A program made the translations under genes and the position numbers. Of a stretch of DNA of 64,000 bases, positions 47,110 to 62,931 are shown in pieces. The DNA is from Acidobacteriota bacterium. Lineage in GTDB: Bacteria; Acidobacteriota; Terriglobia; Terriglobales; Acidobacteriaceae. The notes under the pieces were generated by a model. That model made no database searches. It was not told the origin of the DNA and saw only the letters and a list, made by a program, of their open reading frames with translations. Every line of letters starts with the position of its first letter. Position 1 is the stretch's first letter. Location of the stretch: contig JABCZI010000008.1 in the NCBI GenBank assembly GCA_013289765.1, positions 124,001-188,000 on the forward strand, written 5' to 3'.

Positions 47110-47185
47110 GGGCGCGTAGCTCAGTTGGTAGAGCAATGCCCTTTTAAGGCATGGGTCGCAGGTTCGAGTCCTGCCGCGCTCACCA
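47110..47185 (+). tRNA. tRNA-Lys(UUU), encoded CCA; integration site
   Basis: Full cloverleaf: GGGCGCG...CGCGCTC acceptor, CTTTTAA anticodon loop, GCAGGTTCGAGTCCTGC T arm, CCA. Confidence 0.97.
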
Positions 47186-48329
47186 CAAATCCTCTGTATT
47201 CACGCACCTTCCGCGTGATTTTCCTCTCAACCCTCCGGGCACTCAATTTCCGATTGTGTCCATTTTTGTGCCTACCTGCAATTGCTATGGTTTCAGCGGG
47301 CTCCTCGCTCATGGCGGCATAAGCCCTGTCAATCGTATCGGCGCTCGGATGCACGTACCGCATGCTCATTTGAATCGAGCTATGGCCCGCAATCTTCATC
47401 AATGTCCAGACATCGCAACCGCTCGCGCCAAGCCGAGTGAGAAAAGTGTGCCGAAGGCTGTACAACACAAACGGTGTGACCTTGGAATCCTTGAGCGCCT
47501 TCTTGTGCATTTTCTTTGTGGAGTCATGTGAGATGTGCTCCGTCTTTGTCGGTGCGGGCCACACCCAACCCGTTGCAGGTTTCCCCTGTGCTTCCCAACG
47601 CGCCTCAAGCGCACCGAGCACGCCGGGCCGCATGGGAATGAAGCGACGTGTGGCGGTTGACTTGCCCGTTAGCACGTGAATTGCGCCGCGCTTGCCCGCA
47701 TTGGGCCATATGATTTGCTCCCATCGTTGTCTGTGCAGTTCATCGGGGCGAAGGCCCGTGTCAAATAGCACCGTGGCAACGTCTTTGAGCAACGGTAAGC
47801 AGACCGCGAGGTAAGCGGCTTCCTCCTTCGGTGTGATGACGCGCTCGCGCCGAGCCTCGCCCGCGAGCAATTGAATCTTGGGTGCAACCTCGATAACACC
47901 CCAATCGGCGGCGAGGCGGAGAATCCGCCGCAACACGCGCAATGAGGAATTGATTGTGCCGGGCACAACCTCTTGGCTCGTGCGCCACGCGGCAAAGCCT
48001 GCCGCGTGCTCGCCCCGAATTTCATCGAGCGGCATACCGGAGAGCGTTGCGTATTTGAGTAGAGCCCGCGTGCCGCTCCTATACCAAACAAACGTTGTGG
48101 GTGAGAGTGCCTTGGCATAAGGCTCGATGCGCCCGGTACAGAATTCCTTGAATGTGGGTGCGGCTTTTTTCTCGCGGATATCAACGAGGCCCTCTGCGAG
48201 TCTCGTGCGGTGCCCGGCTTCAATCTTGCGGGCGGTTTTGTCGCTGCCCGTCTTGGCCGATTCACGAATGACCTTGCCCTTCCACATGAAACGATACCAA
48301 TACACACCACCGCGCTTGTAGATGCCCAT
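47121..48329 (-). CDS. Tyrosine recombinase/integrase
   Basis: VLFDTGLRPDELHRQRW; YSLRHTFLTRLGASGCDVWTLMKIAGHSSIQMSMRYVHP catalytic RHRHY motifs; C-terminus reads through tRNA-Lys/att core. Confidence 0.93.
   Translation of the reverse strand: MGIYKRGGVYWYRFMWKGKVIRESAKTGSDKTARKIEAGHRTRLAEGLVDIREKKAAPTFKEFCTGRIEPYAKALSPTTFVWYRSGTRALLKYATLSGMPLDEIRGEHAAGFAAWRTSQEVVPGTINSSLRVLRRILRLAADWGVIEVAPKIQLLAGEARRERVITPKEEAAYLAVCLPLLKDVATVLFDTGLRPDELHRQRWEQIIWPNAGKRGAIHVLTGKSTATRRFIPMRPGVLGALEARWEAQGKPATGWVWPAPTKTEHISHDSTKKMHKKALKDSKVTPFVLYSLRHTFLTRLGASGCDVWTLMKIAGHSSIQMSMRYVHPSADTIDRAYAAMSEEPAETIAIAGRHKNGHNRKLSARRVERKITRKVREYRGFVVSAAGLEPATHALKGHCSTN
47140..47185 (+). repeat. att core, left copy (46-bp direct repeat within tRNA-Lys)
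   Basis: ccttttaaggcatgggtcgcaggttcgagtcctgccgcgctcacca identical to 62886-62931. Confidence 0.95.
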
Positions 48330-49051
48330 TACTTGGCCCTCCTGCTCGATTTCTTCTGTGCCTGCTCGCGCCACTCGTTGCCGTGTTCGTTCCACCACTT
48401 GTTTGACCGGAGCCGTTGCCCATAAGCCACGCACGGCCCTGCCTCGCAAAACTTTTGCGTGCGGCGCTTTCTCACAAAATAAGGTGCCGGGCAATCCGGG
48501 TTTTCGCATTTCACAGTGTTGCGGGATTCATGGTCAATCAAAAAAAGAATGCAGACCACCGTCCAAGCATCCGGTGCGGTGATGTCGATTCGGCCACGGT
48601 TAAATTTCCATTGTGAGGAGATGTTGGCGGATGCGTGCTGCCTTATTGATTCGATGGCGGCCCGATCACCTTCCCACGCCTTGCGCAAAACATCTCGTTG
48701 TTGATGCAGGTGTGAGATGCCATAGTGATAGAAGTCTGCCTTCGGATGCTCCTTGAGCAACTCGTGCACGCTCTCGTTGGGCGATAGGGGCAGCAAATCG
48801 CGAGCCTGTCCGTTTTTCCACAAGTATTCTTTCGAGGCAAACAACGGGCCGTATGACTCCACAAACTTGAGTGCGGCCTTCTCATCATCCAATAGATTCG
48901 CGAGGGCTACGTGCGGCGGATGCTTCACACCGAACACGTGGAGCGTTTCACCGCCCGCAATTACTGCAATGCTCCCCGCCCGCGCCAAGGCGGCCTTGGG
49001 TTTCACCAATTCCAACGAGTAACGGATTCCGCGTGTTTTGCTAGATGCCAT
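48329..49051 (-). CDS. Zinc-finger (CGNR-like) hypothetical protein
   Basis: C-terminal CENPDCPAPYFVRKRRTQKFCEAGPCVAYGQRLRSNKWW; overlaps integrase start. Confidence 0.65.
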   Translation of the reverse strand: MASSKTRGIRYSLELVKPKAALARAGSIAVIAGGETLHVFGVKHPPHVALANLLDDEKAALKFVESYGPLFASKEYLWKNGQARDLLPLSPNESVHELLKEHPKADFYHYGISHLHQQRDVLRKAWEGDRAAIESIRQHASANISSQWKFNRGRIDITAPDAWTVVCILFLIDHESRNTVKCENPDCPAPYFVRKRRTQKFCEAGPCVAYGQRLRSNKWWNEHGNEWREQAQKKSSRRAK

Positions 49052-49192
49052 CCTGCAATCTCCTGCGCAACCACTTGATGACAACGCATTTCTATTGCCA
49101 TGTAGCAGAAGAATACCGCATAATTGCTCTCGATGGCAAGCAAAAGTTACTGACATATAGCACTTAGCAACAGGGGAGAGGGAGGTGGGCAG

Positions 49193-49384
49193 ATGGAAAA
49201 CGAATTACTCACGTTGGGCGAGGTGAGCGGCATCCTTCGGGTGAAGTTGAGCACGTTGAGGGCGTGGCGATTGCAGAAAAAGCACCTCACGTTCCGAAAG
49301 ATTGGTGGCAAAGTGCTCGTGCACCGGGCGGATTGCAACCGGCTTATCGAGCGAAGCAAGGCCGCACCGGCAGGTGCCCGTTGA
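49193..49384 (+). CDS. MerR/excisionase-like HTH protein
   Basis: LLTLGEVSGILRVKLSTLRAWRLQKKHLTFRKIGGKVLVHRADCNRLIE. Confidence 0.75.
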   Translation: MENELLTLGEVSGILRVKLSTLRAWRLQKKHLTFRKIGGKVLVHRADCNRLIERSKAAPAGAR

Positions 49385-49563
49385 GCCGAGATGAGTTGAT
49401 ACGCAAAGTGACCGCTGCCGTTGATGACGCGATGCGCTCGCGAATCTTTGGCAGCATCGAGGTTGAATTCCGAGCGGGTGAGCCGTGTTTCATTCGCCAA
49501 CACAAGCAAGAAAAATTGGATGACACAAGGGAGCACCCGTCAAATGGAAACCGCCAACGATAA
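49381..49563 (+). CDS. Small YezD/DUF2292-like protein (TTG start)
   Basis: SRDELIRKVTAAVDDAMRSRIFGSIEVEFRAGEPCFIRQHKQEKL; translationally coupled to upstream HTH gene. Confidence 0.5.
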   Translation: MSRDELIRKVTAAVDDAMRSRIFGSIEVEFRAGEPCFIRQHKQEKLDDTREHPSNGNRQR

Positions 49564-51550
49564 CGCTCTCAACAAAGTAATCTCGCTCTTTGGAGCCAAC
49601 GACACCGGGCGCGGCGGTTTGTGCCCCGGCTGTGGTCATCACTCCATCACCATTGATAACAAAAAGGGAAAGGTGCTCGCTTGGTGCGCAGCCGAATGCG
49701 GTGCACAAGATGCGATCAATGCAAAAGTGCGCGAGCTACTCGGCCCGGAGAAACCGCTCACGCTCTCAACGTGGTGCGCTTGGAAGAAACTACCCGAGCA
49801 TTGGGTGCGTGATTTTGCTCTCGTGCATGAGCGGGTGTTTGTGTCCAAAGATGGCAAACCCCACAAGGGCCGTACTCTTTGCTTTCCCTACATCGGATTG
49901 CCGGAGGTGCGTGAATGGGTTGACGGGGAGGGCACCAAGCACACCACGCGCACGCGCCATGAGGGCGGCTTCAAATTTCGCCCGTACAAACACAAAAAAG
50001 GATTTTGGGGCGAGTACACCGGGCCGATGCTGTACGGGTTTAACTTGCTGCCTTACTACGAGGCGCACGGCATCGAGTTGAACACTGTGGTGCTCGTTGA
50101 GGGTGAATCCGACACCATCACACTCGCTTACAACGGGATTCCCACACTCGGCGTACCGGGCGCACCGAATGGTTGGCGCGATGAATTCGCCAAGGTGCCG
50201 GTGCTCGCGGCGGCCCGTCGCATTTTGTTTATAGAGGAGCCCGATGAGGCGAGTGCCAAGCTAACCAAGAAAATCGCGGCAAGTTTCGAGCCGGGCAAGG
50301 TCTGGCGCGTCAAGTTGCCGGTTAAAGATGCCTCCGATTTATGGACGCGCAACCCCAAGGAATTCGCAACGGAATGGCAAAGGGCAGTGAGTGCCGCTGC
50401 GTCTGTCATCCCGACCAACGACACAACGGCGGTGGAGGGCGAGCGGCATTACATGCTAACCCGGATGTCGGAGCGTACACCCAAAGCCCTCGAATGGTTT
50501 TGGCCCGGCAAGATTCCGAAAAACAAAGTTGCAATGTTTGCAGGTGAGCCGGGTGCCGCGAAAAGTCTTGTAACGTGCTCTCTCGCCGCCTTGCAGAGTA
50601 CCGGCAGTTGTTTGCCCGGCGAAGTGATGCCGAGCCTCAATGTGGCCGAGGTTGCAATGCTCTATTGCGAGGATGACACGGATGACACAGTTTTGCCCCG
50701 GCTCATCGCATCAGGTGCAGACCTCACGCGGATACATGAGTTGAAGGTTAAGCGCATCGCACAGGATGGCACAGAGGAGGAGAGGCACCTCGCGCTTGAT
50801 ACCGACTTGGCCATTTTGCGGGAGTGCTTGCGGGAAAACCCCAAGATTCGATTGGTCACAATTGACCCGATCACCAACTATACCGGCGCGGCCAAGATCA
50901 CCGATGAGAAGGCAATGCGCGATGTGCTCACACCACTCAAGGAGTTAGCATCCGAGCGCGAAGTCACCATCATTCTCGTTGCCCACCTCAACAAACGCTC
51001 GGATGTCAACGCACTCAACCGCGTGCTCGGAGCCGTTGCAATGACCGGTGTTGCTCGCAGTGCTTGGCTCTTTGCGGCGGATGAGGATGCCCCGGATGAC
51101 GGTTTTGACCATATGCTCATGCTCCATGGAAAGCTAAACGTTGGGCGCAAAGCAAAGCAGAGTCTCAAGTACAGCATCAAGACCAAAGACATTGCCGAGC
51201 TACCGCCCGAGGCCGACGCGGTGCCGTACATCGAGTGGAACGGCGAATCCGAGCAAACGGCGGAGGATGTGCTCGACACATCGAGCGGCAAGAAAAGCGA
51301 GAAGGCAGGCAAGCGGCAGGAGGGTGTTGCCTTCCTCCGCTCAATGCTTGGAGGCGGCCCGAGGCTCGCGGATGAGGTAAACAACGCGGCGGCGGCCCGG
51401 AGCATAAGCGAGGCAACCTTGCGGCGGGCTAAGAAAGACCTCAAGGTGCAATCGGAAAAGGAGAGGGGCACACCCAACGGGCGCATTTATTGGCGCTTGG
51501 CCGGTGATGGCCGCCTCCCGATGAGCAGCAACGATGAGCAGTATTGTTGA
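49520..51550 (+). CDS. Primase-helicase / RepA-like AAA ATPase
   Basis: CPGCGHHS...AWCAAECG Zn finger; VVLVEGESDTITLAYNG Toprim; AMFAGEPGAAKSLVTCSLAA Walker A. Confidence 0.85.
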   Translation: MTQGSTRQMETANDNALNKVISLFGANDTGRGGLCPGCGHHSITIDNKKGKVLAWCAAECGAQDAINAKVRELLGPEKPLTLSTWCAWKKLPEHWVRDFALVHERVFVSKDGKPHKGRTLCFPYIGLPEVREWVDGEGTKHTTRTRHEGGFKFRPYKHKKGFWGEYTGPMLYGFNLLPYYEAHGIELNTVVLVEGESDTITLAYNGIPTLGVPGAPNGWRDEFAKVPVLAAARRILFIEEPDEASAKLTKKIAASFEPGKVWRVKLPVKDASDLWTRNPKEFATEWQRAVSAAASVIPTNDTTAVEGERHYMLTRMSERTPKALEWFWPGKIPKNKVAMFAGEPGAAKSLVTCSLAALQSTGSCLPGEVMPSLNVAEVAMLYCEDDTDDTVLPRLIASGADLTRIHELKVKRIAQDGTEEERHLALDTDLAILRECLRENPKIRLVTIDPITNYTGAAKITDEKAMRDVLTPLKELASEREVTIILVAHLNKRSDVNALNRVLGAVAMTGVARSAWLFAADEDAPDDGFDHMLMLHGKLNVGRKAKQSLKYSIKTKDIAELPPEADAVPYIEWNGESEQTAEDVLDTSSGKKSEKAGKRQEGVAFLRSMLGGGPRLADEVNNAAAARSISEATLRRAKKDLKVQSEKERGTPNGRIYWRLAGDGRLPMSSNDEQYC

Positions 51551-51712
51551 CCATGCTCACCCAAGATACCCCATATGGTCACCGTGAGCATGGTGAGCAT
51601 GTTGTTGATTTAATTAATTATTGATTGAGCATGGTGAGCATCATCGACCACGCTCAAGGCGCTCACGGCGCTCACCGTGCGCATATGGGGGTGATGATGA
51701 GCACCCACGATT
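51550..51712. repeat. Iteron-like/inverted repeat cluster (GGTGAGCAT/ATGCTCACC) with AT-rich segment
   Basis: ccatgctcacc, gtgagcatggtgagcatg, gagcatggtgagcatcat around ttaattaattattg. Confidence 0.7.
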
Positions 51713-51813
51713 CGGGCACGTAACACCCGACTGTAGAGAGAGAAGCCACACCGCCACGTTTGGAAAAAACAGTCCCGAGGCGGTGGGGCAGATCACAACC
51801 ACAAAGTGAGCAC

Positions 51814-52074
51814 ATGCAAAGCAGAACGGACATAACGGCGGCGGAAATTTTCCTCCACACTCGCTTGATTTTTGGCGAGCGAGGAAACGTTGCCCGAGTG
51901 TCTCGATGTTTGCCGGGCTCACCACGGGCCACGTTGTACGAAACGCTTGAGAAGGCCGAGGCCGTTGCGGCGCTCGGCAAGAAGTGTTGCCCGGATTGCA
52001 TTGGAGCGCACAGCACCGAGGAAATCCCGCCCCTCGTTGATGAGGTGCCTTACGAGATTGGTTACAGACGTTGA
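51814..52074 (+). CDS. Small hypothetical protein
   Basis: MQSRTDITAAEIFLHTRLIFGERGNVARVSRCLPGSPRATLYETLEKAEAVAALGKKCCPDC. Confidence 0.5.
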   Translation: MQSRTDITAAEIFLHTRLIFGERGNVARVSRCLPGSPRATLYETLEKAEAVAALGKKCCPDCIGAHSTEEIPPLVDEVPYEIGYRR

Positions 52075-52089
52075 GAGAGAGGTTGAGAG

Positions 52090-52437
52090 ATGTGCCCACG
52101 TGCTTGCGATAAGCCCGATATTTTTATAGCTGGTTTGCCCATTGAAATCACGCCCGGTGAGTTGCGGAAAATGCTCAAGCGCATCACGACCGAGCCCTCA
52201 TACTTGCAAATTGTGCGATGCAAGCGCGGCGTGTTGATGCCGCGAGCAATCGCTTTCATCCGGCTCGCTCCATGCGCCGATGCTGTGGCCGTAATCGAGA
52301 AACTCCACGGCGTTGTGATGGATGGCCACACAATCACCGTGACCAAGTTCAAAGCAGTAAGCAACCGAGCGCCGCGAGCGTGCTTTCACTCTGTGCCGCA
52401 TCCTTGGACGATTGCGCAAACCGAGGCGGCGCAGTGA
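52090..52437 (+). CDS. RRM-fold RNA-binding protein
   Basis: RNP2-like DIFIAGLP and RNP1-like PRAIAFIRL; AVIEKLHGVVMDGHTITVTKFK C-terminal RRM signature. Confidence 0.75.
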   Translation: MCPRACDKPDIFIAGLPIEITPGELRKMLKRITTEPSYLQIVRCKRGVLMPRAIAFIRLAPCADAVAVIEKLHGVVMDGHTITVTKFKAVSNRAPRACFHSVPHPWTIAQTEAAQ

Positions 52438-52574
52438 TGGGCCAACGCATTCCTCCTCCGCCCCCTCCAAAGATGACGCCCGGTGAGCCCTTTGGCGGAT
52501 TCAATCCGTGGTGGGCTCCAATTGTTGTGTATGCCGTGCTCACCGCACTTCTCATTTGGATGGCCGCACGATGA
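52437..52574 (+). CDS. Small single-TM protein
   Basis: MGQRIPPPPPPKMTPGEPFGGFNPWWAPIVVYAVLTALLIWMAAR; start/stop overlap with RRM gene. Confidence 0.55.
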   Translation: MGQRIPPPPPPKMTPGEPFGGFNPWWAPIVVYAVLTALLIWMAAR

Positions 52575-52738
52575 TGCGTAAGTGCATCAACCCCACCAAG
52601 TCACCGAGCACCGAGGGCGCATTGTACTTCGATGAAAACGGAAAGCGAATTACCGAGAGCCCAGTGCGGCATGTGCCCGACCCATGGGCCGCGCTCGTGG
52701 CGGTCGCGTCACAGGCGAGAGTGATGGAGGAGGGTTAA
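52571..52738 (+). CDS. Small hypothetical protein
   Basis: Coupled start overlapping previous stop (ATGA). Confidence 0.5.
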   Translation: MMRKCINPTKSPSTEGALYFDENGKRITESPVRHVPDPWAALVAVASQARVMEEG

Positions 52739-52741
52739 CAC

Positions 52742-52969
52742 ATGGCAGATTTTGCACCGATCACAGCCGAAGAGAGAGCCAACAACAAGGCCAACCGCCT
52801 CAAGCATGCGGCATCACCGGCAGACGGATTGACCGTGCGCGTGCTTGATAAGCGACACGCCAACACGAGTTTTGCAAGCCGTGGCGTTGAGCCCGGCGCG
52901 GTTGTGGTGTTGAGCCGTGACACTGCATTGCAGGCGATCAAAGATGAGCACGCGGGAATCGCGGAATAA
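52742..52969 (+). CDS. Small hypothetical protein
   Basis: 75 aa ORF directly following in the same operon. Confidence 0.5.
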   Translation: MADFAPITAEERANNKANRLKHAASPADGLTVRVLDKRHANTSFASRGVEPGAVVVLSRDTALQAIKDEHAGIAE

Positions 52970-53065
52970 CCCAACAATCTTGCGATGGTCGCACCTCGCA
53001 CGAGAGGGTAGGAGCGCAGAGCCGAGCCGGGCAACCGGCTCCCTTTCGTCTACAATGACGAAGGC

Positions 53066-53863
53066 ATGGCAAAAGGTAAATATGCCAAAAAGCGAGAGCG
53101 CCGCGACAAGGTAAATGCTATGGCTATCGAAGCAAACCCTGAAGTGCAGGCATCCAAAGGCAAAGGGAGCGATTCCAGCGCACAAAGCAATGATCACCAG
53201 CCACGATGGTGGGGCTTGACTCGTTTTGAATGGGTTATCAGTGGTCTTACTTTCTTGGCCGCAGTGATAGCTGGTCTGACTGGAGGGATTCTTTGGAAGC
53301 AAGTCAAAGGCAGCGAACTGGATGTTCGAGCGTGGGTAGTAGCCCGCCAGAATGGATCGATTCAGGCCGTGGCAAATAGAGCTTTGGCCCTTCCAATTCG
53401 AGCTACCAACACCGGCAAAACCCCAGCGAAACAAGTAACTGGCAGGTACTATCTTGAGGTTGTGAAAAATGGAGAAGCTCCCGATTTTGACTATACAAAA
53501 ACTCGACCCCTCCAAAAGATGTATTCGGGCGATCTGTCTCCAAATGACAATGCTGACATCGTGGCTATGCGGTATAAAGATAAGCTCGGAAGTACAACCG
53601 ATACACTCGTGTATCCGCTGGATGAAATTGAATACAGGGCTATTATGGATGGATCGTACTATGTCGCCGCTCACGGGATAATCACGTATGACGACGTTTT
53701 CCATATTCATCATTGGAAAACATTCTGTTTTTGGTTTCCGTTTACAAGTCTTGACTACTCGACCGGCGCTTGCGTGGCTCACAACGCAAGCGACGATCAC
53801 GGAGAGACATACAGACCGCTTCCGAAACCAGCCCCCCATGAAATGACGCAAAATCAAATGTAG
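53066..53863 (+). CDS. Single-TM hypothetical protein with extracytoplasmic domain
   Basis: WGLTRFEWVISGLTFLAAVIAGLTGGILW TM; 265 aa. Confidence 0.65.
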   Translation: MAKGKYAKKRERRDKVNAMAIEANPEVQASKGKGSDSSAQSNDHQPRWWGLTRFEWVISGLTFLAAVIAGLTGGILWKQVKGSELDVRAWVVARQNGSIQAVANRALALPIRATNTGKTPAKQVTGRYYLEVVKNGEAPDFDYTKTRPLQKMYSGDLSPNDNADIVAMRYKDKLGSTTDTLVYPLDEIEYRAIMDGSYYVAAHGIITYDDVFHIHHWKTFCFWFPFTSLDYSTGACVAHNASDDHGETYRPLPKPAPHEMTQNQM

Positions 53864-53898
53864 GGCCGCCCCCCATACGTTTCAACCTACAAAAAATC

Positions 53899-53923
53899 GA
53901 GCGCCTCCTAACCAAAGGCGCTC
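53899..53923 (+). terminator. Terminator-like hairpin
   Basis: gagcgcct-cctaaccaa-aggcgctc. Confidence 0.6.
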
Positions 53924-54029
53924 TTGGTGTCTGTGGCCAATATCGGAAAGTGATGGCAGAGCATTTACAAATTGCTTGATCCCCTCCAAGACTGTCGCTA
54001 GAATGTGCCCGTGACGCTTTGAGTCTACT

Positions 54030-54266
54030 TTGACTTACACGGCGATAACTTCGGATGTACGGCTCTTTGGACAGGTGGCGTCACTAATCATAGTCCTCGT
54101 TTGCATGATTCTTGGTGCACTCGGTTTTTTCAAGCGCGACCCCAACAAATGGTATGGAACTATGCAATGCAACAAGTGCGGTTACGTATGGCAGTCGAGG
54201 CGCAGGACTCCACCGGCAAGATGCGCCCGATGTAACACAACGGCGATTCGAGTTTCTCTAGGTTGA
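54030..54266 (+). CDS. Small TM protein with zinc ribbon
   Basis: TM helix then CNKCGYVWQSRRRTPPARCARC. Confidence 0.55.
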   Translation: MTYTAITSDVRLFGQVASLIIVLVCMILGALGFFKRDPNKWYGTMQCNKCGYVWQSRRRTPPARCARCNTTAIRVSLG

Positions 54267-54364
54267 TCTTGTTTAGAGCGGACCAACACTTATACAAAAC
54301 CCTCAATGAGCGCTATGGCTGGTTTCGCCAGTTCATCTGGACACCGTCTAACTGAAGCGGCAAA

Positions 54365-54739
54365 ATGCATACAATGACCGAAGAACTGGCAGCTCTGATG
54401 CAACGTTACCGCCGCACGCCTGAATTCATGTTCTCGGACTTGAGCGACGTAAACTCGACGGGGATGACTGGCGACACGCTCCTGCACTCAGCAGTCGTCA
54501 GATCATCCACTGAAGACGTGGACCTGCTTATCAGATCGGGAGCTAAAGTAAATGCACAAGGAGACCTGGGAAACACGCCTCTTCACCACGCCGCAAGCCG
54601 TGGCCTGTTGAGCATTGCTGCGAAGTTGGTTGCCTCGGGTGCAAACACGCAGTTGAAGAACGAGTTCGGTCAAACGCCCGCTGATATTGCAACTCTCATG
54701 AAACACAACGAAGTGGCAGACCTTCTACTGGCCAAGTGA
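54365..54739 (+). CDS. Ankyrin-repeat protein
   Basis: GDTLLHSAVVRSSTEDVDLLIRSGAKVNAQGDLGNTPLHHAASRGLLSIAAKLVASGANTQLKNEFGQTPADIA. Confidence 0.85.
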   Translation: MHTMTEELAALMQRYRRTPEFMFSDLSDVNSTGMTGDTLLHSAVVRSSTEDVDLLIRSGAKVNAQGDLGNTPLHHAASRGLLSIAAKLVASGANTQLKNEFGQTPADIATLMKHNEVADLLLAK

Positions 54740-55426
54740 TCCCAGCTTTTGCATAGTTGGCGAAAAATCGCGATTACACTTCGCAATTCCGCAACCACAC
54801 ACCTCCGCGTGGCAGGGCGGCCCGTTTGCGGCGCAGTGTTGAGCCATTGGCTGCATCATCCCGCCCGAACCCGCGCCCATGGCCGCATGTGAGCCACACG
54901 AGTAACTCACACATCCGCACATCAACACACATCTGTGCGCATGATGGCTGCCCTTGCACTGCAACGGTTTACCTCGGTGACTTCTGAAAGCGCACTCTCT
55001 GCGAAGCCCGGCACATCACCAATATCCAGCACAATTGGCACCGCAATGCCCTCGAAACGATATGGTGCGCAGCTCAGTGTTGCAACGTTGCCAATAGGTT
55101 GTGAGGTTGTTGGTTGCTTTTGGTGTTGAGTTGAGAGGCACTTCGCGGCCTTCTGTATGTTATTGACCCCGAAGGGGATAGGCAGGGGTAAATTTCCCTG
55201 CCTTCAACCGTGGCGACCGTTGCGCGCTTCCAAAGCCACACTCGCGAAATTCGTTGCGAGATTTAGACGCGATACGCCAAGCACGAGCCACGAATCACCC
55301 GAGTTTAGCTTCGCTCGGTCTCCATTCCTGCGAGTTGGCGGCCACATTGCGCGCCCGGTTTCGCATTGCCCTAACACCTCACGGAGATGATGCGAAACAC
55401 AAAACGCAAAGCAGGAGGCTCTAAAC

Positions 55427-55678
55427 ATGCCCGCAGACCCGAGCAAGGCCGGAAAGATTGGCGGCAAGAGTAAAAGCGCAGCGAAACTCGCGGCGGCCCG
55501 CCGCAACGGATTCCAAAAAGTGACCAAGGCCGAGTCCAAGCCGGTGCCCACGGTTGAGCAACTCCGCCGCGTTATTACGGTGCCCGCACCGTCAAACCGG
55601 CGATCACCGAAACCACAACCCACAACCGCAACCGATGAGTTGCAACAGGAGCCCACATCCGATGATTTCACCATCTAA
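55427..55678 (+). CDS. Small basic hypothetical protein, phage/element-type
   Basis: MPADPSKAGKIGGKSKSAAKLAAARRNGFQKV; RBS-like aggagg upstream. Confidence 0.55.
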   Translation: MPADPSKAGKIGGKSKSAAKLAAARRNGFQKVTKAESKPVPTVEQLRRVITVPAPSNRRSPKPQPTTATDELQQEPTSDDFTI

Positions 55679-55868
55679 CTTTGGCCGCCTAGTCGTGGCC
55701 CTTTGGCGTACCGCCCAAGCCCGCGAGGTTGCTGTTGCAACTCTCCGCGAGCGCGAAGCAATCACTGCCTCAACACGCTGGCAGGCGAGGCAGTGTCGGG
55801 AATTGCGGCGCTCGATTGCCAAGTTGACCGCACGAGCACAACGGCAAGCTGGAAAGTTGGCCGCGTGA
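55662..55868 (+). CDS. Small basic hypothetical protein
   Basis: MISPSNFGRLVVALWRTAQAREVAVATLREREAITAS..., overlaps previous ORF. Confidence 0.4.
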   Translation: MISPSNFGRLVVALWRTAQAREVAVATLREREAITASTRWQARQCRELRRSIAKLTARAQRQAGKLAA

Positions 55869-56179
55869 TGATGAAATTTTGGAAACGCAAACCGGAGTCG
55901 CAATTTTGGCGCGAGGAGTTGGAGCGCGTGCGTAACGATCACGCCCAACAGGTTGAGCACCTCCGCGCCGAGATTGCAAAGCGTGATGCGGAAATCGAGC
56001 GTCTCAACACCGAGGCCGCCGAAGTGCGGCGCGAGGTTGAGAAATCCGTGCGCGAGTTGGCCGAGCAAAATGCGGCGCTCACCTTGCGTGCACAACAGAG
56101 GCAAGCACCACCGTGCGTGCCAATCGGTAACGAATCGGATGGTGAGTACAAATATGAGCAGAGTGGCGGCGGTTGGTGA
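55868..56179 (+). CDS. Coiled-coil hypothetical protein
   Basis: EELERVRNDHAQQVEHLRAEIAKRDAEIERLNTEAAEVRREVEKSVRELAEQ. Confidence 0.5.
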   Translation: MMKFWKRKPESQFWREELERVRNDHAQQVEHLRAEIAKRDAEIERLNTEAAEVRREVEKSVRELAEQNAALTLRAQQRQAPPCVPIGNESDGEYKYEQSGGGW

Positions 56180-56431
56180 CCACAATTCTTCTTGCCGTTT
56201 TGATTTTCGTTTTGTGCGGGCGCAAACCACCGAGCGGGCGCGGCGGGTGCTCGTACACGCGCAACGCACCCAAGGGAGCGGCTCCAACATCGAGGCGAGT
56301 GTGAGTTTCTCCACCATCGCATTTCTGTTTTTGCTGTGCTCGCGCTCGTGTGTGCTGTCACACGCGGGTGAAACGTTGAGGGGCTCAACCCCTAAAGAAG
56401 TGCGGCAACGCACTTAGAAAGTAGGAATAAC

Positions 56432-56902
56432 ATGGCGGACATTCAACTCAAGACTTTTGAAAAGCAACGCTTTTACAAGATTGATGACACACTCGCCCGC
56501 ATTCTTTTTTCACTTGGTGTTGCCGAAGGCATCACGAAAGAGCCCGCACAAACGCGTGAGGATACACCACCGCCCAAGGTGCCAACATTCTCCGTTGTGA
56601 TGGGGCCACAAGGCTCACCGGTTTTGCAATTGCATCTCCCGAGCGGCGAGCGCCGATTCTTCAACAACGAGATTGCAATGCGGTTTGATGCAAACACGCA
56701 ACGTAAGCAATGGGCCGAGGCCGTGCGCAACGCGTTTAAGACTTTGGTGTGGAGCGGTGCCGAGGGGCGGCAAGTGTTGCAAGGCCCGGAGCCCTCGGAG
56801 GAAGTCATCGAGGAGTACCGAAACACGCGCAACAAGTTGGCGGCGGCGGCCAATGAGGCTCACCGCGTGAAGATGGAGAATGCAGCGATTTTGAGCCGTT
56901 GA
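56432..56902 (+). CDS. Hypothetical protein
   Basis: 156 aa ORF, no recognised motif. Confidence 0.55.
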   Translation: MADIQLKTFEKQRFYKIDDTLARILFSLGVAEGITKEPAQTREDTPPPKVPTFSVVMGPQGSPVLQLHLPSGERRFFNNEIAMRFDANTQRKQWAEAVRNAFKTLVWSGAEGRQVLQGPEPSEEVIEEYRNTRNKLAAAANEAHRVKMENAAILSR

Positions 56903-56930
56903 AGTCGGCAGGTAACAAAAACTGATTTTT

Positions 56931-57284
56931 ATGAGGAGCATCACCATGGACAAACTTTTACAGAAGCGATGGCACGACAGTGGAAAATGTTTGGAAGATT
57001 TCACGCTTGCGGAACTTGGCCCGGTGAAATACCGAGCGGCGGAGCAACGGATTTCGGAACGAATTAAGCAACATGCTTTCACTGTGCGTGCAAATCAAGC
57101 CCGTGCTCGCATGGCGCAGCGTGCAGCCGAGGCAACCGATGCAATCAACAAGCGGCTCGCCGCACTCCTCGGGTTAAAGATTCGCTCGGAGGCCAACAAG
57201 TTATCCACCGAGGAACGGGTTGCGCAATGGTGGGATGAATTGAAAACCCGCACCATTTCCGCACGCCCGTGGGTGAAAAACTAA
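56931..57284 (+). CDS. Hypothetical protein
   Basis: 117 aa ORF in the same operon direction. Confidence 0.5.
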   Translation: MRSITMDKLLQKRWHDSGKCLEDFTLAELGPVKYRAAEQRISERIKQHAFTVRANQARARMAQRAAEATDAINKRLAALLGLKIRSEANKLSTEERVAQWWDELKTRTISARPWVKN

Positions 57285-57387
57285 ACAAGATTCGGGGCGA
57301 GGGGTGGTGCCCAAGCCTCGATAGTGCGTGCCGGTGGGGTTACTCCTGTTTCCCACACAAACATCGGCACGTGCGCTCAGAAAATGA

Positions 57388-57612
57388 ATGGAGGCAACAA
57401 TCATGGAAGCAGAAAACTTAACCCGAGCTTGTGACCGAGCCCATGCAATTTTCATCGAGGAAACCGAGCGCCGCGTTGAGCGCGAGCAGGCCGCCGCAAC
57501 CGCTCCACCTCAACCACCGTTTGTGCCGCTCACCGCCGAGAAAATCCGCGAGGCGGCCAACGCCATCCGAGCGAAACAAGGGCTTGGCCCATTGCCCAAC
57601 GGCATCGCATGA
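57388..57612 (+). CDS. Small hypothetical protein
   Basis: 74 aa ORF overlapping the start of the next ORF. Confidence 0.5.
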   Translation: MEATIMEAENLTRACDRAHAIFIEETERRVEREQAAATAPPQPPFVPLTAEKIREAANAIRAKQGLGPLPNGIA

Positions 57613-58586
57613 CCGACATTCGCGCCACTCATTACCCGGTTGAGGCAACCTTCCACGGATTCGCGGAAGGTTGGAAGTCAACCGGGCTCTCGTTCGGTGA
57701 CATTGGCCGCATGAGCGTGAGCGAGCGCAAAGGCGCACGGGCTCGGCGCTTTGTCACCCCATCTTGGGCCGTCAACGATGATGAGTTGGCCGAGTTGGTC
57801 ACGTACTTTATGGAAAAGCGTGCCCGCTTGCACGGCACTGACGAGGGCACGTTGGCCGAGCGGCTCGCACATGCCGAAGCACGGTTATTGCACGAGGGGC
57901 GGACTCAGTACGTTGAGTCTCTCCAAAATTTGTGCGCCGAATACGTGCAACTCAAGAAATCCGGTGCCGTGGATGCCGGGCGCGTGCGGAGCCTTGAAAT
58001 TCTAATTGCGAATCGTGACACCGTGGTGCGCATGATTGACGGAGGATGCTCGCGCATGTTGCTTGGCGTGGTTTATCACTACTATCGGCGCGGGCTCAAC
58101 GGCCTTCAAGTTGGGGAAGAGATTGGCCTCAAGCATGACCATGTGCGGCAAATTCTTTACCGGTTGCACACTGCTTGGCGGGAATTAAAAGGCATCGAGC
58201 CGGAGCGCATTTCACATCGGTACCTTGATTTTTCGGGCAATGATTACGAGGTGGATGATGAGCAGGTTTACGTTTTGCGGGCTCGCGGGTTGAGTTATCG
58301 TGCCATCTCGGTACGGTTGCGCATCCCTTATTTTGAGGTGCTCAATGCACGCGCTCGCCTGAAAAGGCGGCGTGAAACATTGGAAGTTGTATGCGGTGCG
58401 GTGCAGCAACACACCGGCGAGGTGTTGCCCGTTCCTGATTTGCCTCGGTGTTTTGAATCCTCAACACCAACTCCGTCGTCCGAAAACGTGCGTTACAAAT
58501 TGTACGCACAATTCTGCGAGCGCCTCGGGCATGCCCCGATGAGCGAGCGCGTGTGGCAAATCCAAGACAAGGGCAACATGTACTAA
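57609..58586 (+). CDS. HTH-containing hypothetical protein (sigma region 4-like helices)
   Basis: LNGLQVGEEIGLKHDHVRQILYRLHTAWRELKG and RARGLSYRAISVRLRIPYFEVLNARARLKRR. Confidence 0.55.
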   Translation: MTDIRATHYPVEATFHGFAEGWKSTGLSFGDIGRMSVSERKGARARRFVTPSWAVNDDELAELVTYFMEKRARLHGTDEGTLAERLAHAEARLLHEGRTQYVESLQNLCAEYVQLKKSGAVDAGRVRSLEILIANRDTVVRMIDGGCSRMLLGVVYHYYRRGLNGLQVGEEIGLKHDHVRQILYRLHTAWRELKGIEPERISHRYLDFSGNDYEVDDEQVYVLRARGLSYRAISVRLRIPYFEVLNARARLKRRRETLEVVCGAVQQHTGEVLPVPDLPRCFESSTPTPSSENVRYKLYAQFCERLGHAPMSERVWQIQDKGNMY

Positions 58587-59351
58587 ATGGCGCGAATCAA
58601 CCTCATCCGTGCGGGCCGCCGCGTTGGAAAATTGCTCGTGCTCCGGCGAGCAGGCACCAACAAGCGCGGGCGCTTGTGGCTGTGCATCTGCGATTGCGGG
58701 CGCAAGAAACTCATCAACACCAACTCACTCCGCGTGGTGAAATCGTGCGGGTGCATGTATCGCGGCGGGCGTTTTCAAAGTTTTGTGGGCAAACGATTCG
58801 GGCGCTTGTTTGTGATGCGTGACAGCGGAGAACGGCAGAAGGATAGCGGCGCACGGATGTGGTCATGCCGGTGCGATTGCGGGCGAGATAAGTTGGTTGC
58901 ATCGTGTGACCTCACCAAGACAAATGGCACGCAATCATGTGGGTGCTTGTTTCTTGAGCACTGCGCAACGATTCGCCGCACCCATGGTGCCCGCTCGATG
59001 GATGTACCGCCCGGCGTGAAACGCGCTTATAGCTCTTGGAGCAACATGCGCACCCGGTGCCTCAATCCCAACTCGATAAATTGGAAGGACTACGGAGGCG
59101 CGGGCATCACGGTGCACAAGGCGTGGCTCGGGCCAAACGGTTTTCGCGCATTCCTCGCGGATATGGGGCAGAGGCCGGAGGGCACAACGCTCGATAGGCG
59201 CAACGCGTTTGAGGGATACAACCCCAACAATTGCCGATGGGCCGATGCGGAAACACAGGCGAACAATCAAAGGCGATTTTATGTTGACGGGAAACCGCCC
59301 GCCGAGGTGATTGCGGGATGCGAGCCCATCGCGCCCGGTGCCGAGTGGTGA
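58587..59351 (+). CDS. Phage-type zinc-ribbon / HNH-homing-endonuclease-like protein
   Basis: Two CxCG...CGC ribbons; YSSWSNMRTRCLNPNSINWKDYGGAGITVHKAWL...TTLDRRNAFEGYNPNNCRWADAETQANN. Confidence 0.7.
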   Translation: MARINLIRAGRRVGKLLVLRRAGTNKRGRLWLCICDCGRKKLINTNSLRVVKSCGCMYRGGRFQSFVGKRFGRLFVMRDSGERQKDSGARMWSCRCDCGRDKLVASCDLTKTNGTQSCGCLFLEHCATIRRTHGARSMDVPPGVKRAYSSWSNMRTRCLNPNSINWKDYGGAGITVHKAWLGPNGFRAFLADMGQRPEGTTLDRRNAFEGYNPNNCRWADAETQANNQRRFYVDGKPPAEVIAGCEPIAPGAEW

Positions 59352-59420
59352 GCAGGCGCTCGTTGACAAATTCCGGTCCATCGGGCAAGCAAGTGGCGAA
59401 CATAAGGCGAACAGTGTACC

Positions 59421-59612
59421 ATGGCTGTTGTGGATGAGGGTCGCAAGCGCGTGTTGTTGATTGCGGCGAGCATCCTAGCAGCCCGAAAGTTGGCGCAACA
59501 CGATGGTGGGAAGCGCGTACCGGCAACAGTGGCCGCCATTTCAGATGCTGTGCGATGGGCCGAAGAAATCATGCGTGAGATTGATGAGCGGTGGCCAGCA
59601 CGAGATGCTTAA
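59421..59612 (+). CDS. Small hypothetical protein
   Basis: 63 aa ORF MAVVDEGRKRVLLIAASILAARKLAQHDGGKRVPATVAAISDAVRWAEEIM. Confidence 0.45.
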   Translation: MAVVDEGRKRVLLIAASILAARKLAQHDGGKRVPATVAAISDAVRWAEEIMREIDERWPARDA

Positions 59613-59662
59613 GGTGAGGCGGTCTTTTGGAAAAGTCACCTCGCGGCAAGGGAAACAGGTAT

Positions 59663-60871
59663 ATGATGGACGACTTCCAACAACAAATTGTCATAGTGGA
59701 AGTCCCAATCAATTCCGAGGTGCTGCGATGGGCCAGAGAGCGCGCTGGCCTCAGCATCGATCAACTTACTAAGAACTTCGTTGACACTTCGAGAATACGA
59801 AGTTGGGAAAACAGCACCTCTCTACCTACATTGGCACAGGCAGAAACGCTTGCGACTAAATTAAGAATACCCCTCCCGATTTTGCTTTTGGACCAACCGC
59901 CAAAAATTCCATTGCCAATCCCCGATTTAAGAACATTGGACAGCCTCTCACCGGGAAATCCAACTCCCGAATTTGTCGATACAGTCAACGATGCTGTTGT
60001 CAGGCAAAGTTGGTATCGCGAGTATGTCCTTACAGAGTCTGCCCGGCCCTTAGCTTTCGTCGGTCAATTCAATCCAACTGACAACGTTTCTACGGTGGCA
60101 CGGTCGATTCGCACCGTGCTTCAGCTTGATGAGCGCCTGCGCCTTCAATGCCGGACGTGGCAAGACTTTCTTAGTAAGTTTGTGCAACGGGCAGACAGCG
60201 CAGGAATAATCGTGATGAGAAATAGTGTTTTTCGCCACGACAACACCCGCAGACTCCTTGTTGACGAGTTTAGAGGATTCGCAATAAGTGATGCCTATGC
60301 CCCCCTTGTCTTCGTCAACAGTCGAGATGCGAAGGCGGCGCAGATTTTCACGTTAGCCCACGAACTGGCTCACATTTGGTTAGGCGCTACCGGCATCTCC
60401 AATCCCGACCCGAGAAAACGGCGCGCGGATTTCAATGCAGTGTTGGAACGGACGTGTAATGAGATAGCGGCAGAAGTGCTCGTTCCGCAAGATAGCTTCC
60501 TACGATTATGGTCAGTTGACAAAACGACGGACGCCAATGTGAAGCAGGTAGCGGCGCACTATCGTGTGAGTTCGATGGTGGCGCTGAGGCGAGCGAATGA
60601 TCTTGGAAAGATCAACGCGGAGGAATTTAAGAGGAAAATTGCTGCCGAGTATGCCCGCTTCCGCGCCATGGAGAAAGAGGAGCAGGAAAAAAAAGAGGAG
60701 GAGAGAAGTGGGAACTTTTGGAACCTATTCGCTATGCGCAACGGCCAACGCTTCACGGATGCCGTGGCCAATGCCGCACGTCGCGAAGCAATACCCTTTA
60801 TCTATGCGTCGCACTTACTCGGCGTAAAAGCGTCCACTCTTGAAAACTACATCAAGCGCTTTCAGGTTTGA
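59663..60871 (+). CDS. XRE HTH + ImmA/IrrE metallopeptidase (COG2856-type)
   Basis: LRWARERAGLSIDQL HTH; FTLAHELAHIWLG (HExxH) protease motif. Confidence 0.88.
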   Translation: MMDDFQQQIVIVEVPINSEVLRWARERAGLSIDQLTKNFVDTSRIRSWENSTSLPTLAQAETLATKLRIPLPILLLDQPPKIPLPIPDLRTLDSLSPGNPTPEFVDTVNDAVVRQSWYREYVLTESARPLAFVGQFNPTDNVSTVARSIRTVLQLDERLRLQCRTWQDFLSKFVQRADSAGIIVMRNSVFRHDNTRRLLVDEFRGFAISDAYAPLVFVNSRDAKAAQIFTLAHELAHIWLGATGISNPDPRKRRADFNAVLERTCNEIAAEVLVPQDSFLRLWSVDKTTDANVKQVAAHYRVSSMVALRRANDLGKINAEEFKRKIAAEYARFRAMEKEEQEKKEEERSGNFWNLFAMRNGQRFTDAVANAARREAIPFIYASHLLGVKASTLENYIKRFQV

Positions 60872-60880
60872 GGAATATTC

Positions 60881-61378
60881 GTGCCAAGGCACTGGCTTGA
60901 CTCTAGTGTGTTCATTACGGCGCGTGACACGATGTTTGCATTCGACATCAATACTTCGTTTTGGAAGTGGATGGGTGAGGCGCTCGAATCAGGCGCTGTT
61001 GTTGCGCCTCGGAAAGTTTACGAAGAACTTGTTGAGAATGTAAGGAAAACAGATGACTTGGCAATATGGGTAAAGACGAGACGCAAGAAAGGCTTGTGCG
61101 TGGAGCCCGACGCGCAGACATTTCAGGCCCTAAAGTCCGTTTCGGATTATCTCTTCCACGGTGGGCGCTACCAGTACCCGTTTGCTCTTGATTTCGTTAA
61201 CGGAGCAGACCCGTGGATTATTGCCCATGCGATGGTGGACGGAGGCACTGTCGTTTCGCAAGAGACAGACAAACAGCCACACGCTAACCGCGTTCGCATC
61301 CCGGACGTGTGTGATCACTTTGGGGTTCCGTGCGTTAAAGTTTGGGAGATGTTACGAAATTTGGGAGCGAAGCTGTGA
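60881..61378 (+). CDS. DUF4411-like PIN-domain protein
   Basis: WLDSSVFITARD, VVAPRKVYEEL, NGADPWIIAHAMVDGGTVVSQE acidic PIN-like residues; adjacent to XRE-ImmA gene. Confidence 0.8.
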   Translation: MPRHWLDSSVFITARDTMFAFDINTSFWKWMGEALESGAVVAPRKVYEELVENVRKTDDLAIWVKTRRKKGLCVEPDAQTFQALKSVSDYLFHGGRYQYPFALDFVNGADPWIIAHAMVDGGTVVSQETDKQPHANRVRIPDVCDHFGVPCVKVWEMLRNLGAKL

Positions 61379-61388
61379 GTTGGGCTTG

Positions 61389-61508
61389 TGGTAGGGATAC
61401 CGGGAGTCGAACCCGGACGCCTTGCGGCAGAGCCTTGTAAGGTGCCGAACTCGCTTTCGTTTCGGCATCTTGGCAAGGCCCCGCGTCTGCCAATTCCGCC
61501 ATATCCCC
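61389..61508 (-). tRNA. tRNA-Leu-like class II tRNA with anticodon loop replaced by an extended hairpin (no assignable Leu anticodon)
   Basis: GGGGATA/TATCCCT acceptor, GCGGAATTGGCAGACGC D arm, TGCCGCAAGGCGT variable arm, CCGGGTTCGACTCCCGG T arm, A73, encoded CCA; 42 nt between the GGGCC and GGCTC halves of the anticodon stem. Confidence 0.85.
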
Positions 61509-61636
61509 CACGAATGAAAGTTATAACATCGAGCTTACGGGTACGGGGTGAACACCCTTCGTTGGTGATTTTGATGGAAAGAAATGGCTCTCTGATGTCG
61601 CGTTCGCGTCTCCGATCACTTTCGTCATAAGGGCTT

Positions 61637-62674
61637 ATGCTTCCCGTTGATCTCGTCGATAAACTCGCGCAATGTGCTGCGAATGACTTCGTAACGCCAC
61701 GAGACAACTCGTTCCACTGGCTCTCGCGGTTTACAACGATGGTGGTTGTCGGCCTAGCACTCGAACTTCCTGAATTAGGGTATGAGTTAAGGACAATTGC
61801 TCGCGAATGCATTCCGTACTTTAAATATCGGATCATCACGCGTCGCGGCTTCGAGCATGCAGCAAAAGTCATTGCCTTTGTAGGCTGGATGCTTATTGTG
61901 GGAGGAGTGGCCGGTGAACGGGTTGAAGAAGTCAACGTAAAAGATTCCGATGCGCGAATCCAAGAATGCAGCGATGCCAAAGTGCAAGCCGCAACGCTAG
62001 AAGCTGGCGATGCGGCAAAGTCTGCCAAGACTGCTCACGATGAAGCCGATGCGGTTAAAGGCATTGCCAACGCTGCCAAGAAAGATGCCAAGGATGCACT
62101 GGCAAAGGCGCAAGCTGCGCAACGTGAGCTAGCACACGCAGAATCCGATGCTGCTAAGGCACAAGCAATAGCCTCGAATGCGTTACGTAAATCTACGGAA
62201 GCGGAATCCCGCACAGAGCGCGCAGAACACCAAGCCGATGAAGTGTCCAAAAAGGTTGAGACTGCGAAAAGCGATGTTGCTGTTTTGCAGTCTCTCATGT
62301 CGGCACGACGCATAATCGACACCAAGCCATTTGAGCAATTAAAGCAACTCAAAGGGAAGTCGATCCTTACATACTCAACATATGATGACGAACCAAGAAC
62401 GTTATGCGGAGCAATTAGTTCTGCCTTGCGATCAACCGCTCAAATGAATGCTATGGGTGGCTGCGGCGCAATGGAAATTGTTGGCCCAGGAATAATCGTT
62501 ACGGGACCAGATTTATCAGAATCTAGGGTAGTCGCTAAGGCTTTGTCGGAAGCGATAGGTGTTAACGTTACACCGGTGCCGGATAGTCCAACGGGACCGA
62601 ATCGGCAAACCGGAAATCCAAGCCTGCTAAAGGTAATCGTAGGACCAAAAGGTCTATTTTGGTTCGAAAAATAA
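61637..62674 (+). CDS. Membrane-associated Ala-rich coiled-coil hypothetical protein
   Basis: AAKVIAFVGWMLIVGGVAG TM; long coiled coil AAKKDAKDALAKAQAAQRELAHAESDAAKAQAIASNAL; C-terminal alpha/beta domain. Confidence 0.65.
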   Translation: MLPVDLVDKLAQCAANDFVTPRDNSFHWLSRFTTMVVVGLALELPELGYELRTIARECIPYFKYRIITRRGFEHAAKVIAFVGWMLIVGGVAGERVEEVNVKDSDARIQECSDAKVQAATLEAGDAAKSAKTAHDEADAVKGIANAAKKDAKDALAKAQAAQRELAHAESDAAKAQAIASNALRKSTEAESRTERAEHQADEVSKKVETAKSDVAVLQSLMSARRIIDTKPFEQLKQLKGKSILTYSTYDDEPRTLCGAISSALRSTAQMNAMGGCGAMEIVGPGIIVTGPDLSESRVVAKALSEAIGVNVTPVPDSPTGPNRQTGNPSLLKVIVGPKGLFWFEK

Positions 62675-62885
62675 GCAGCAAAGAGCATCACTAGCGTTGC
62701 CTCTTGCTCCCAAACTCAACGGTGCTTCGCGCGCTGTGCCCAAATTTGTGCCTACCGGCAATCCCGAGCGCTTGCGATGAATTGCTATCGTTTCGACTGC
62801 AACCCTTGACGACATAGCAACTTATAGCAATTCACTGTGCACACCTAGTAAATCCCATAAGTGCTGTGTTTTCAGTGCTTGCAGT

Positions 62886-62931
62886 CCTTTTAAGGCATGG
62901 GTCGCAGGTTCGAGTCCTGCCGCGCTCACCA
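62886..62931 (+). repeat. att core, right copy (46-bp direct repeat of tRNA-Lys 3' end)
   Basis: Identical to 47140-47185; not preceded by a tRNA 5' half. Confidence 0.95.

Follow-up and report, generated by a model that had tools for sequence, protein, structure and literature searches.

A class II tRNA body with a long helix in the place of its anticodon loop, encoded next to the genes of a toxin-antitoxin pair, raises the question of what such an RNA is for. The case considered here lies at positions 61389-61508 (minus strand) of the window, by which is meant the whole 64,000-nucleotide stretch of DNA that was analysed, from a soil acidobacterium of the Acidobacteriaceae (contig JABCZI010000008.1, positions 124,001 to 188,000). 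tRNA-cutting toxins and the phage tRNAs that counteract them form an active front in bacterial immunity, and the RNA of the window appears to be an undescribed partner RNA of toxin-antitoxin systems that cut tRNA, possibly acting as their decoy. No description of this tRNA-Leu-like RNA was found in the open PMC literature. If the reading is true, tRNase toxins would have a new mode of control in a natural, conserved tRNA mimic that lacks a usable anticodon and travels with them; the mimic might also be used as a tool for blocking PIN nucleases.

Structure and detection of the RNA

A preliminary description of the locus had placed a class II body at 61389-61508 on the minus strand, with a 42-nt self-complementary insert between the anticodon stem halves GGGCC and GGCTC; sequence, coordinates and pairing were all confirmed. 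The RNA, 120 nt long including the encoded CCA, has the acceptor stem GGGGATA/TATCCCT, a Leu-type D arm, a class II variable arm TGCC-GCAA-GGCG (61418-61429) whose pairs are compensated in genome G550, a T arm (61400-61416) covered by the Rfam tRNA match and, following A73, the CCA end itself (61389-61391; all on the minus strand). The 42-nt hairpin that replaces the 7-nt anticodon loop (61435-61476, minus strand) pairs as GGGCCTTG/CAAGGCTC (8 bp), AAG/CTT and TGCCGAA/TTCGGCA. In the extended anticodon arm as a whole (61430-61481, minus strand), helices of 8, 3 and 7 bp are separated by an internal loop CC/A and an A.C mismatch, respectively, and the arm ends in an 11-nt loop.

When the region was searched alone, the Rfam tRNA model matched 61392-61508 of the minus strand with 37.0 bits (gathering score 29). 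The default Rfam scan of the whole window missed the RNA and ARAGORN made no call at it, which indicates that gene finders miss RNAs of this kind. A covariance model built from the window RNA itself (R1) scored it at 138.5 bits. The fold z-score was -2.9, with values of -3.1, -3.6 and -3.4 for three homologues. The minimum-energy fold of the lone window sequence is not a cloverleaf, GCCTTGC preferring the variable-arm sequence GCAAGGC, and the cloverleaf reading therefore rests on comparison. Upstream of the RNA, at a distance of 12-17 nt, TATAAC (61520-61525, minus strand) is a weak candidate for a -10 hexamer, the corresponding sequence in G550 and L405 being TATAAT; a scan for sigma-70 consensus promoters found none at the window RNA.

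Since positions 32-38 sit in a helix, the window RNA cannot decode as it stands. A 7-nt loop with a Leu anticodon was found neither directly nor by any consistent excision. Excision to a 7-nt loop yields Val or Gly, and the anticodons previously listed as obtainable in this way (GCC, GAC and TAC) were the right ones.

Homologues and covariation

Eight more genomes of the family contain an RNA of the same type, 113-121 nt long as against 85 nt for a normal tRNA-Leu. A covariance model built from the window RNA and that of G550 was run against 399 family genomes and returned six further RNAs of 113-121 nt with 67.7-111.5 bits. Ordinary tRNA-Leu genes reach 71.5 bits at 85 nt with this model, so that the last two members by score (G477 and G631) are separated from them by length and not by score alone. 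The RNA of G015, a genome of the same genus as the window, was found by pattern, as was a weaker tenth member, L241, from a Polyangiaceae MAG. Among the matches listed for 396 genomes of the phylum, searched by covariance model at a strict threshold (E <= 1e-13), only 85-nt RNAs appeared besides that of the window. With 2 of 45 genomes of the genus carrying it and no further long member among these matches, the family is rare.

Aligned by MAFFT without structure, the window and G550 RNAs had 98.6% of cells paired, with 10 of the 37 pairs doubly compensated, while slid registers gave 33-45%. Across ten homologues, in an alignment fitted to the model, 96.7% of cells were paired and two-sided changes occurred in 33 of 37 pairs; none of 500 shuffles reached this, and slid registers gave 39-46%. 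For the extra hairpin (helix 4) of the ten RNAs, likewise in an alignment fitted to the model, 92.9% of cells were paired and every one of the 10 pairs showed two-sided compensatory change. Two of the outcomes by which the preliminary description would have been refuted, a normal loop in homologues and a hairpin lacking covariation, were checked, and both results favour a real RNA. Comparison across homologues thus supports the predicted cloverleaf with its lengthened anticodon arm. Given the recurrence in eight more family genomes and the compensatory changes, the window RNA is not an artefact, and the data support a conserved, structured, tRNA-like RNA with base-paired anticodon positions.

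The Leu-type D arm is nearly unchanged across the members, and the RNA of G015 has G73 and lacks an encoded CCA. Five of the ten RNAs have GCCAA in the buried arm, at the foot of the extra helix, and three of these have the full UUGCCAA; the observation was made post hoc, and four of the five carriers are the window RNA and its closest relatives as ranked by score. In bacteria the anticodon loop of tRNA-Gly(GCC) reads UUGCCAA, and on the strength of this match the buried arm may mimic a real toxin target, for which tRNA-Gly(GCC) is a possible hint.

A further candidate (L331) was inspected and left uncounted, having no clear cloverleaf, and a pattern keeping GGGCCTT retrieved only two viral-contig stretches, both without a cloverleaf. 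In blastn searches of plasmids and phages only pieces of ordinary tRNA-Leu came up. The RNA of the Polyangiaceae MAG lies about 110 bp past a broken-off yifB/comM-like gene (L362, 11143-12500), and the break suggests that an island was inserted in that gene.

Integrated element and toxin-antitoxin pair of the window

Toxin genes, attachment sites and homologues were absent from the preliminary description and were added by the present analysis. The RNA is located inside a 15.7-kb integrated element at tRNA-Lys(TTT), spanning 47110-62931 of the window. A tyrosine integrase is encoded at one end (47121-48509, minus strand; PF00589, E=4.6e-17; these are ORF limits, and the true start may lie inside). 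A 46-bp perfect direct repeat marks the attachment site, one copy (47140-47185, plus strand) lying in the 3' end of tRNA-Lys(TTT) (47110-47185) and the second (62886-62931, plus strand) at the other end of the element. These repeats lie in the tRNA-Lys and not in the tRNA-Leu-like RNA. The element also encodes an AAA_25 ATPase/primase-like protein, an ankyrin-like ORF, a weakly RRM-like protein at 52090-52437 and, at 61637-62674, an ORF with a likely coiled coil.

Convergent with the RNA, with the 3' ends 10 bp apart, is a gene for a VapC52-type PIN toxin of the DUF4411 family (60881-61378, plus strand; PF14367, E=3.6e-39; PDB 9vzy_D, E=5e-12). It is preceded by the gene for a VapB52-type antitoxin with an HTH and an M78/IrrE peptidase domain carrying the HELAH motif (59627-60871, plus strand; PF06114, E=3.3e-19), which matches PDB 9vzy_A over nearly its whole length (E=1.1e-27). 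A DUF4411 PIN toxin with an adjacent HTH + M78 antitoxin bearing HEXXH is the make-up of the VapBC52 type, and as judged from sequence the pair is homologous to M. tuberculosis VapBC52 (PDB 9vzy). VapC52 cuts tRNA, phage tRNAs included, in the anticodon or variable loop, and antitoxins of the VapB52 type are sensors that cleave themselves on binding ssDNA (PMC13273310). Cleavage of tRNA and its neutralisation are established for the M. tuberculosis pair (PMC13273310) and putative for the window pair.

Linkage of the RNA to PIN genes

The order HTH/M78 antitoxin, DUF4411 PIN and convergent RNA recurs without the element in G550, which belongs to another genus. Here the two proteins are 52% and 58% identical to the window pair, the RNA abuts the PIN stop codon with its 3' end, and the trio stands isolated, surrounded by chromosomal genes and next to an IS1595 transposase; none of the proteins scanned was an integrase. 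G598 has a different PIN (PF01850, E=1.5e-10), without similarity to that of the window, from which the convergent RNA is 10 bp away; an uncharacterised gene overlaps the start of this PIN gene. In G477 and G631 the RNA has a PIN gene at a distance of about 1.0 and 1.3 kb, respectively, and in G015 a PIN_12 gene at about 1.0 kb, with one gene in between; no PIN was seen near the RNAs of G490, G514 and G572.

A PIN gene within 1.4 kb was thus present at 6 of 9 RNA loci, as against 0 of 23 normal tRNA-Leu loci at comparable E-values. Among the protein families listed for the 82 ORFs around these 23 control genes, which come from the same bacterial family, none was a PIN, unlisted families having E > 1.4e-4 or, in one third of the set, > 6e-7. 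Fisher's test gave p = 9e-5, or 6e-4 when only the same 1.5-kb flank was counted, values that are guides only because the nine RNAs are related and the test treats the loci as too independent. The PIN neighbours span at least two unrelated families and belong to the same family only in the closest pair. The RNA is linked to PIN genes, and the earlier suggestion of a decoy for anticodon nucleases gains concrete support from this linkage, one of the ribonucleases being homologous to a tRNA-cutting toxin. The pairing in G477, G631 and G015 could instead reflect shared defence islands and not joint function, as the PIN there is one gene away.

The reverse does not hold: no tRNA-like RNA was found near 18 other DUF4411 loci (17 in the family genomes and places searched and one in the own genome) or near eight plasmid-borne HTH/M78-DUF4411 pairs, from which it follows that the DUF4411 toxin does not need the RNA. 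Genes lie just upstream of the PIN genes at L402 (3566-4369), L405 (6467-7258) and L406 (2036-2827); they have no Pfam or NCBIfam matches, are mutually dissimilar or nearly so, and are likely unnamed antitoxins.

Comparison with known systems

With VapBC52 (PMC13273310; PDB 9vzy and 9vzz) the locus shares the HTH + M78/IrrE antitoxin and the DUF4411 PIN toxin, both window proteins matching the solved chains; the described system, however, consists of two proteins, and among the DUF4411 loci checked the RNA is present only at the window and G550. Compared with class II tRNA-Leu (RF00005), the acceptor, D, variable and T arms, A73 and CCA are alike, whereas the window RNA has no anticodon loop, has 13 more anticodon-stem pairs and lies in an accessory element, with toxin genes as neighbours. 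Type III toxin-antitoxin systems likewise encode a small structured RNA beside a ribonuclease toxin, but theirs is an upstream array of tandem repeats, whereas that of the window is tRNA-derived, single, convergent and downstream; the window module moreover has a protein antitoxin, and an inhibitory role of its RNA is putative. Phage tRNAs that evade tRNA-cutting defences are also tRNA genes of mobile DNA tied to tRNases (PMC10264068, PMC11555353), but they decode, whereas the window RNA cannot and travels with the toxin rather than against it. In tmRNA and bacterial Y RNAs, too, a tRNA-like body has had its decoding part replaced, yet the window RNA is of Leu type and not Ala type, no Ro/Rsr partner was seen, neither ARAGORN nor Rfam called a tmRNA at this position, and the Rfam match to Y RNA was insignificant (18.8 bits). 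Nor is there a group I intron core, the insert having 35 nt beyond a normal loop and no Rfam intron match.

Proposed role and alternative explanations

The RNA is tentatively read as a mobile, tRNA-Leu-derived RNA in which a long helix has replaced the decoding end and which would act as an accessory RNA of PIN toxin-antitoxin modules; the chance of this is put a little under even. On this reading it would be a tRNA mimic, probably chargeable yet unable to decode, that cooperates with PIN tRNases. Like a tRNA it would be processed by RNase P and at its CCA end, and it would probably be leucylated while unable to decode; statements on its tRNA identity rest on general knowledge of LeuRS, which in well-studied bacteria largely ignores the anticodon. 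The body would be the part presented to tRNA-binding enzymes, and the buried arm would correspond to what anticodon-loop nucleases cut. With the loop cut by PIN toxins buried in double strand, the RNA may bind the toxin undestroyed or be cut at a different site. Because PIN neighbours recur beside the RNA, a decoy or brake is the simplest link and the most likely role, one that we infer as to mechanism; it would set the activation threshold of the toxin or shield the carrier from leakage. The protein antitoxin would stay the main inhibitor, as most homologous modules have no RNA. That the whole forms a novel toxin-antitoxin or defence module, with a non-decoding and probably leucylated tRNA mimic as the dedicated component controlling the PIN tRNase, through an anticodon arm that is masked or mimics the target (UUGCCAA, tRNA-Gly-like), is conceivable but somewhat doubtful.

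The main rival to a decoy or brake is a sensor or trigger, in which the toxin-antitoxin complex would be altered and the toxin switched on by tRNases of intruding phages, by modification of tRNA or by PIN cleavage of the RNA. It draws on the same RNA-PIN linkage, on the self-cleavage of VapB52-type antitoxins on ssDNA (PMC13273310) and on the tRNAs that phages carry against tRNA-cutting defences (PMC10264068, PMC11555353). These antitoxins, however, already have a DNA sensor and most such modules work without an RNA, and we regard a sensor as unlikely, if credible. A leucine donor or a LeuRS-binding RNA, serving a non-ribosomal reaction or the control of LeuRS, would fit the retention of the acceptor end, A73, CCA, the variable arm and the D arm, the last of Leu type and hardly changed across members. 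No enzyme that uses aminoacyl-tRNA was found in the modules, however, and the neighbour that recurs is a PIN nuclease, which leaves this role quite improbable. That a tRNA gene has decayed or hitch-hiked, for instance a former integration site with an inverted repeat acquired later, has the least claim to belief. Genomic islands do often sit at tRNA genes, A73 and CCA are missing in G015, and L241 lies near the broken-off yifB-like gene; a relic is nevertheless not expected to have every pair of the extra helix compensated by changes on both sides, and the attachment repeats of the window element are in the tRNA-Lys rather than at the RNA.

Two further explanations assume that the insert is removed. 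The preliminary description had named a precursor with a novel short intron as its alternative, and a short non-group-I intron spliced out to leave a normal 7-nt loop agrees with U32U33...A37A38 being mostly kept and with the 26-nt and 20-nt hairpin inserts in tRNA-Leu of two Planctomycetota MAGs and one viral contig, the removal of which gives CAA or UAA. It is disfavoured by the excisions themselves: no common one gives a Leu anticodon, and except in G015 and L241 none to a 7-nt loop does so in the window RNA or its relatives, the products being Val, Gly, Asp, Glu, Pro and others, which makes a spliced Leu tRNA unlikely. The own genome, furthermore, already has Leu genes for CAG, GAG and TAG and two for CAA, and the extra helix covaries pair by pair; the intron is accordingly rated improbable. 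Cutting and ligation to UUGCCAA would instead produce a leucine tRNA reading glycine codons, the RNA then serving as a toxin in its own right or as a means to attack phage translation. Some excision does yield a GCC anticodon in five relatives, and LeuRS in well-studied bacteria takes little account of the anticodon, but the excision point would differ between members, the others give different anticodons and no processing enzyme was seen in the module, so such mistranslation appears very improbable. Replacement of a missing tRNA-Leu(UAA) was rejected, since no excision of the window RNA gives UAA. Leu-TAA, Gly-GCC, Cys-GCA, Ile-GAT, Ala-TGC and Thr-CGT are absent among the 41 tRNA matches listed for G000, probably reflecting assembly gaps or limits of the tRNA search.

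Other tRNA-Leu-like RNAs

Phage contigs carry a large class of tRNA-Leu-like RNAs (L192 with four copies, L124, L190, L069, L215, L122 and about 130 other IMG/VR contigs), in which the anticodon and variable arms are replaced by 36-119 nt of variable sequence, often with AGTCAGGTGGCGGAATTGGTAGACGC...ACAGGTTCGAATCCTGTCCTGACT. Up to four different copies occur per contig, inside tRNA arrays. Rfam sees only tRNA in them, and no paper on them was found in the open PMC literature. Helices are interleaved (pseudoknotted) in many of them, with p<=0.05 relative to shuffled sequences in 26 of 120. Membership of the window RNA in this class was rejected, its family being nested and having a normal variable arm.

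The hairpin inserts mentioned above, of 26 nt or 20 nt in the anticodon loop of tRNA-Leu, were found in L225 and L226 (Planctomycetota MAGs) and L054 (viral contig). Removal after U33 leaves Leu CAA or UAA, and these may be short non-group-I tRNA introns in bacteria. Finally, the tRNA-Leu-like RNAs of L135 (viral), L278 and L236 (Bacteroidota) combine a short, anticodon-like hairpin with a related second domain; TGGCA...GAGAGTCCGGATGCTAAA...GTAAGTCC is common to L135 and L278, and L236 has a diverged version.
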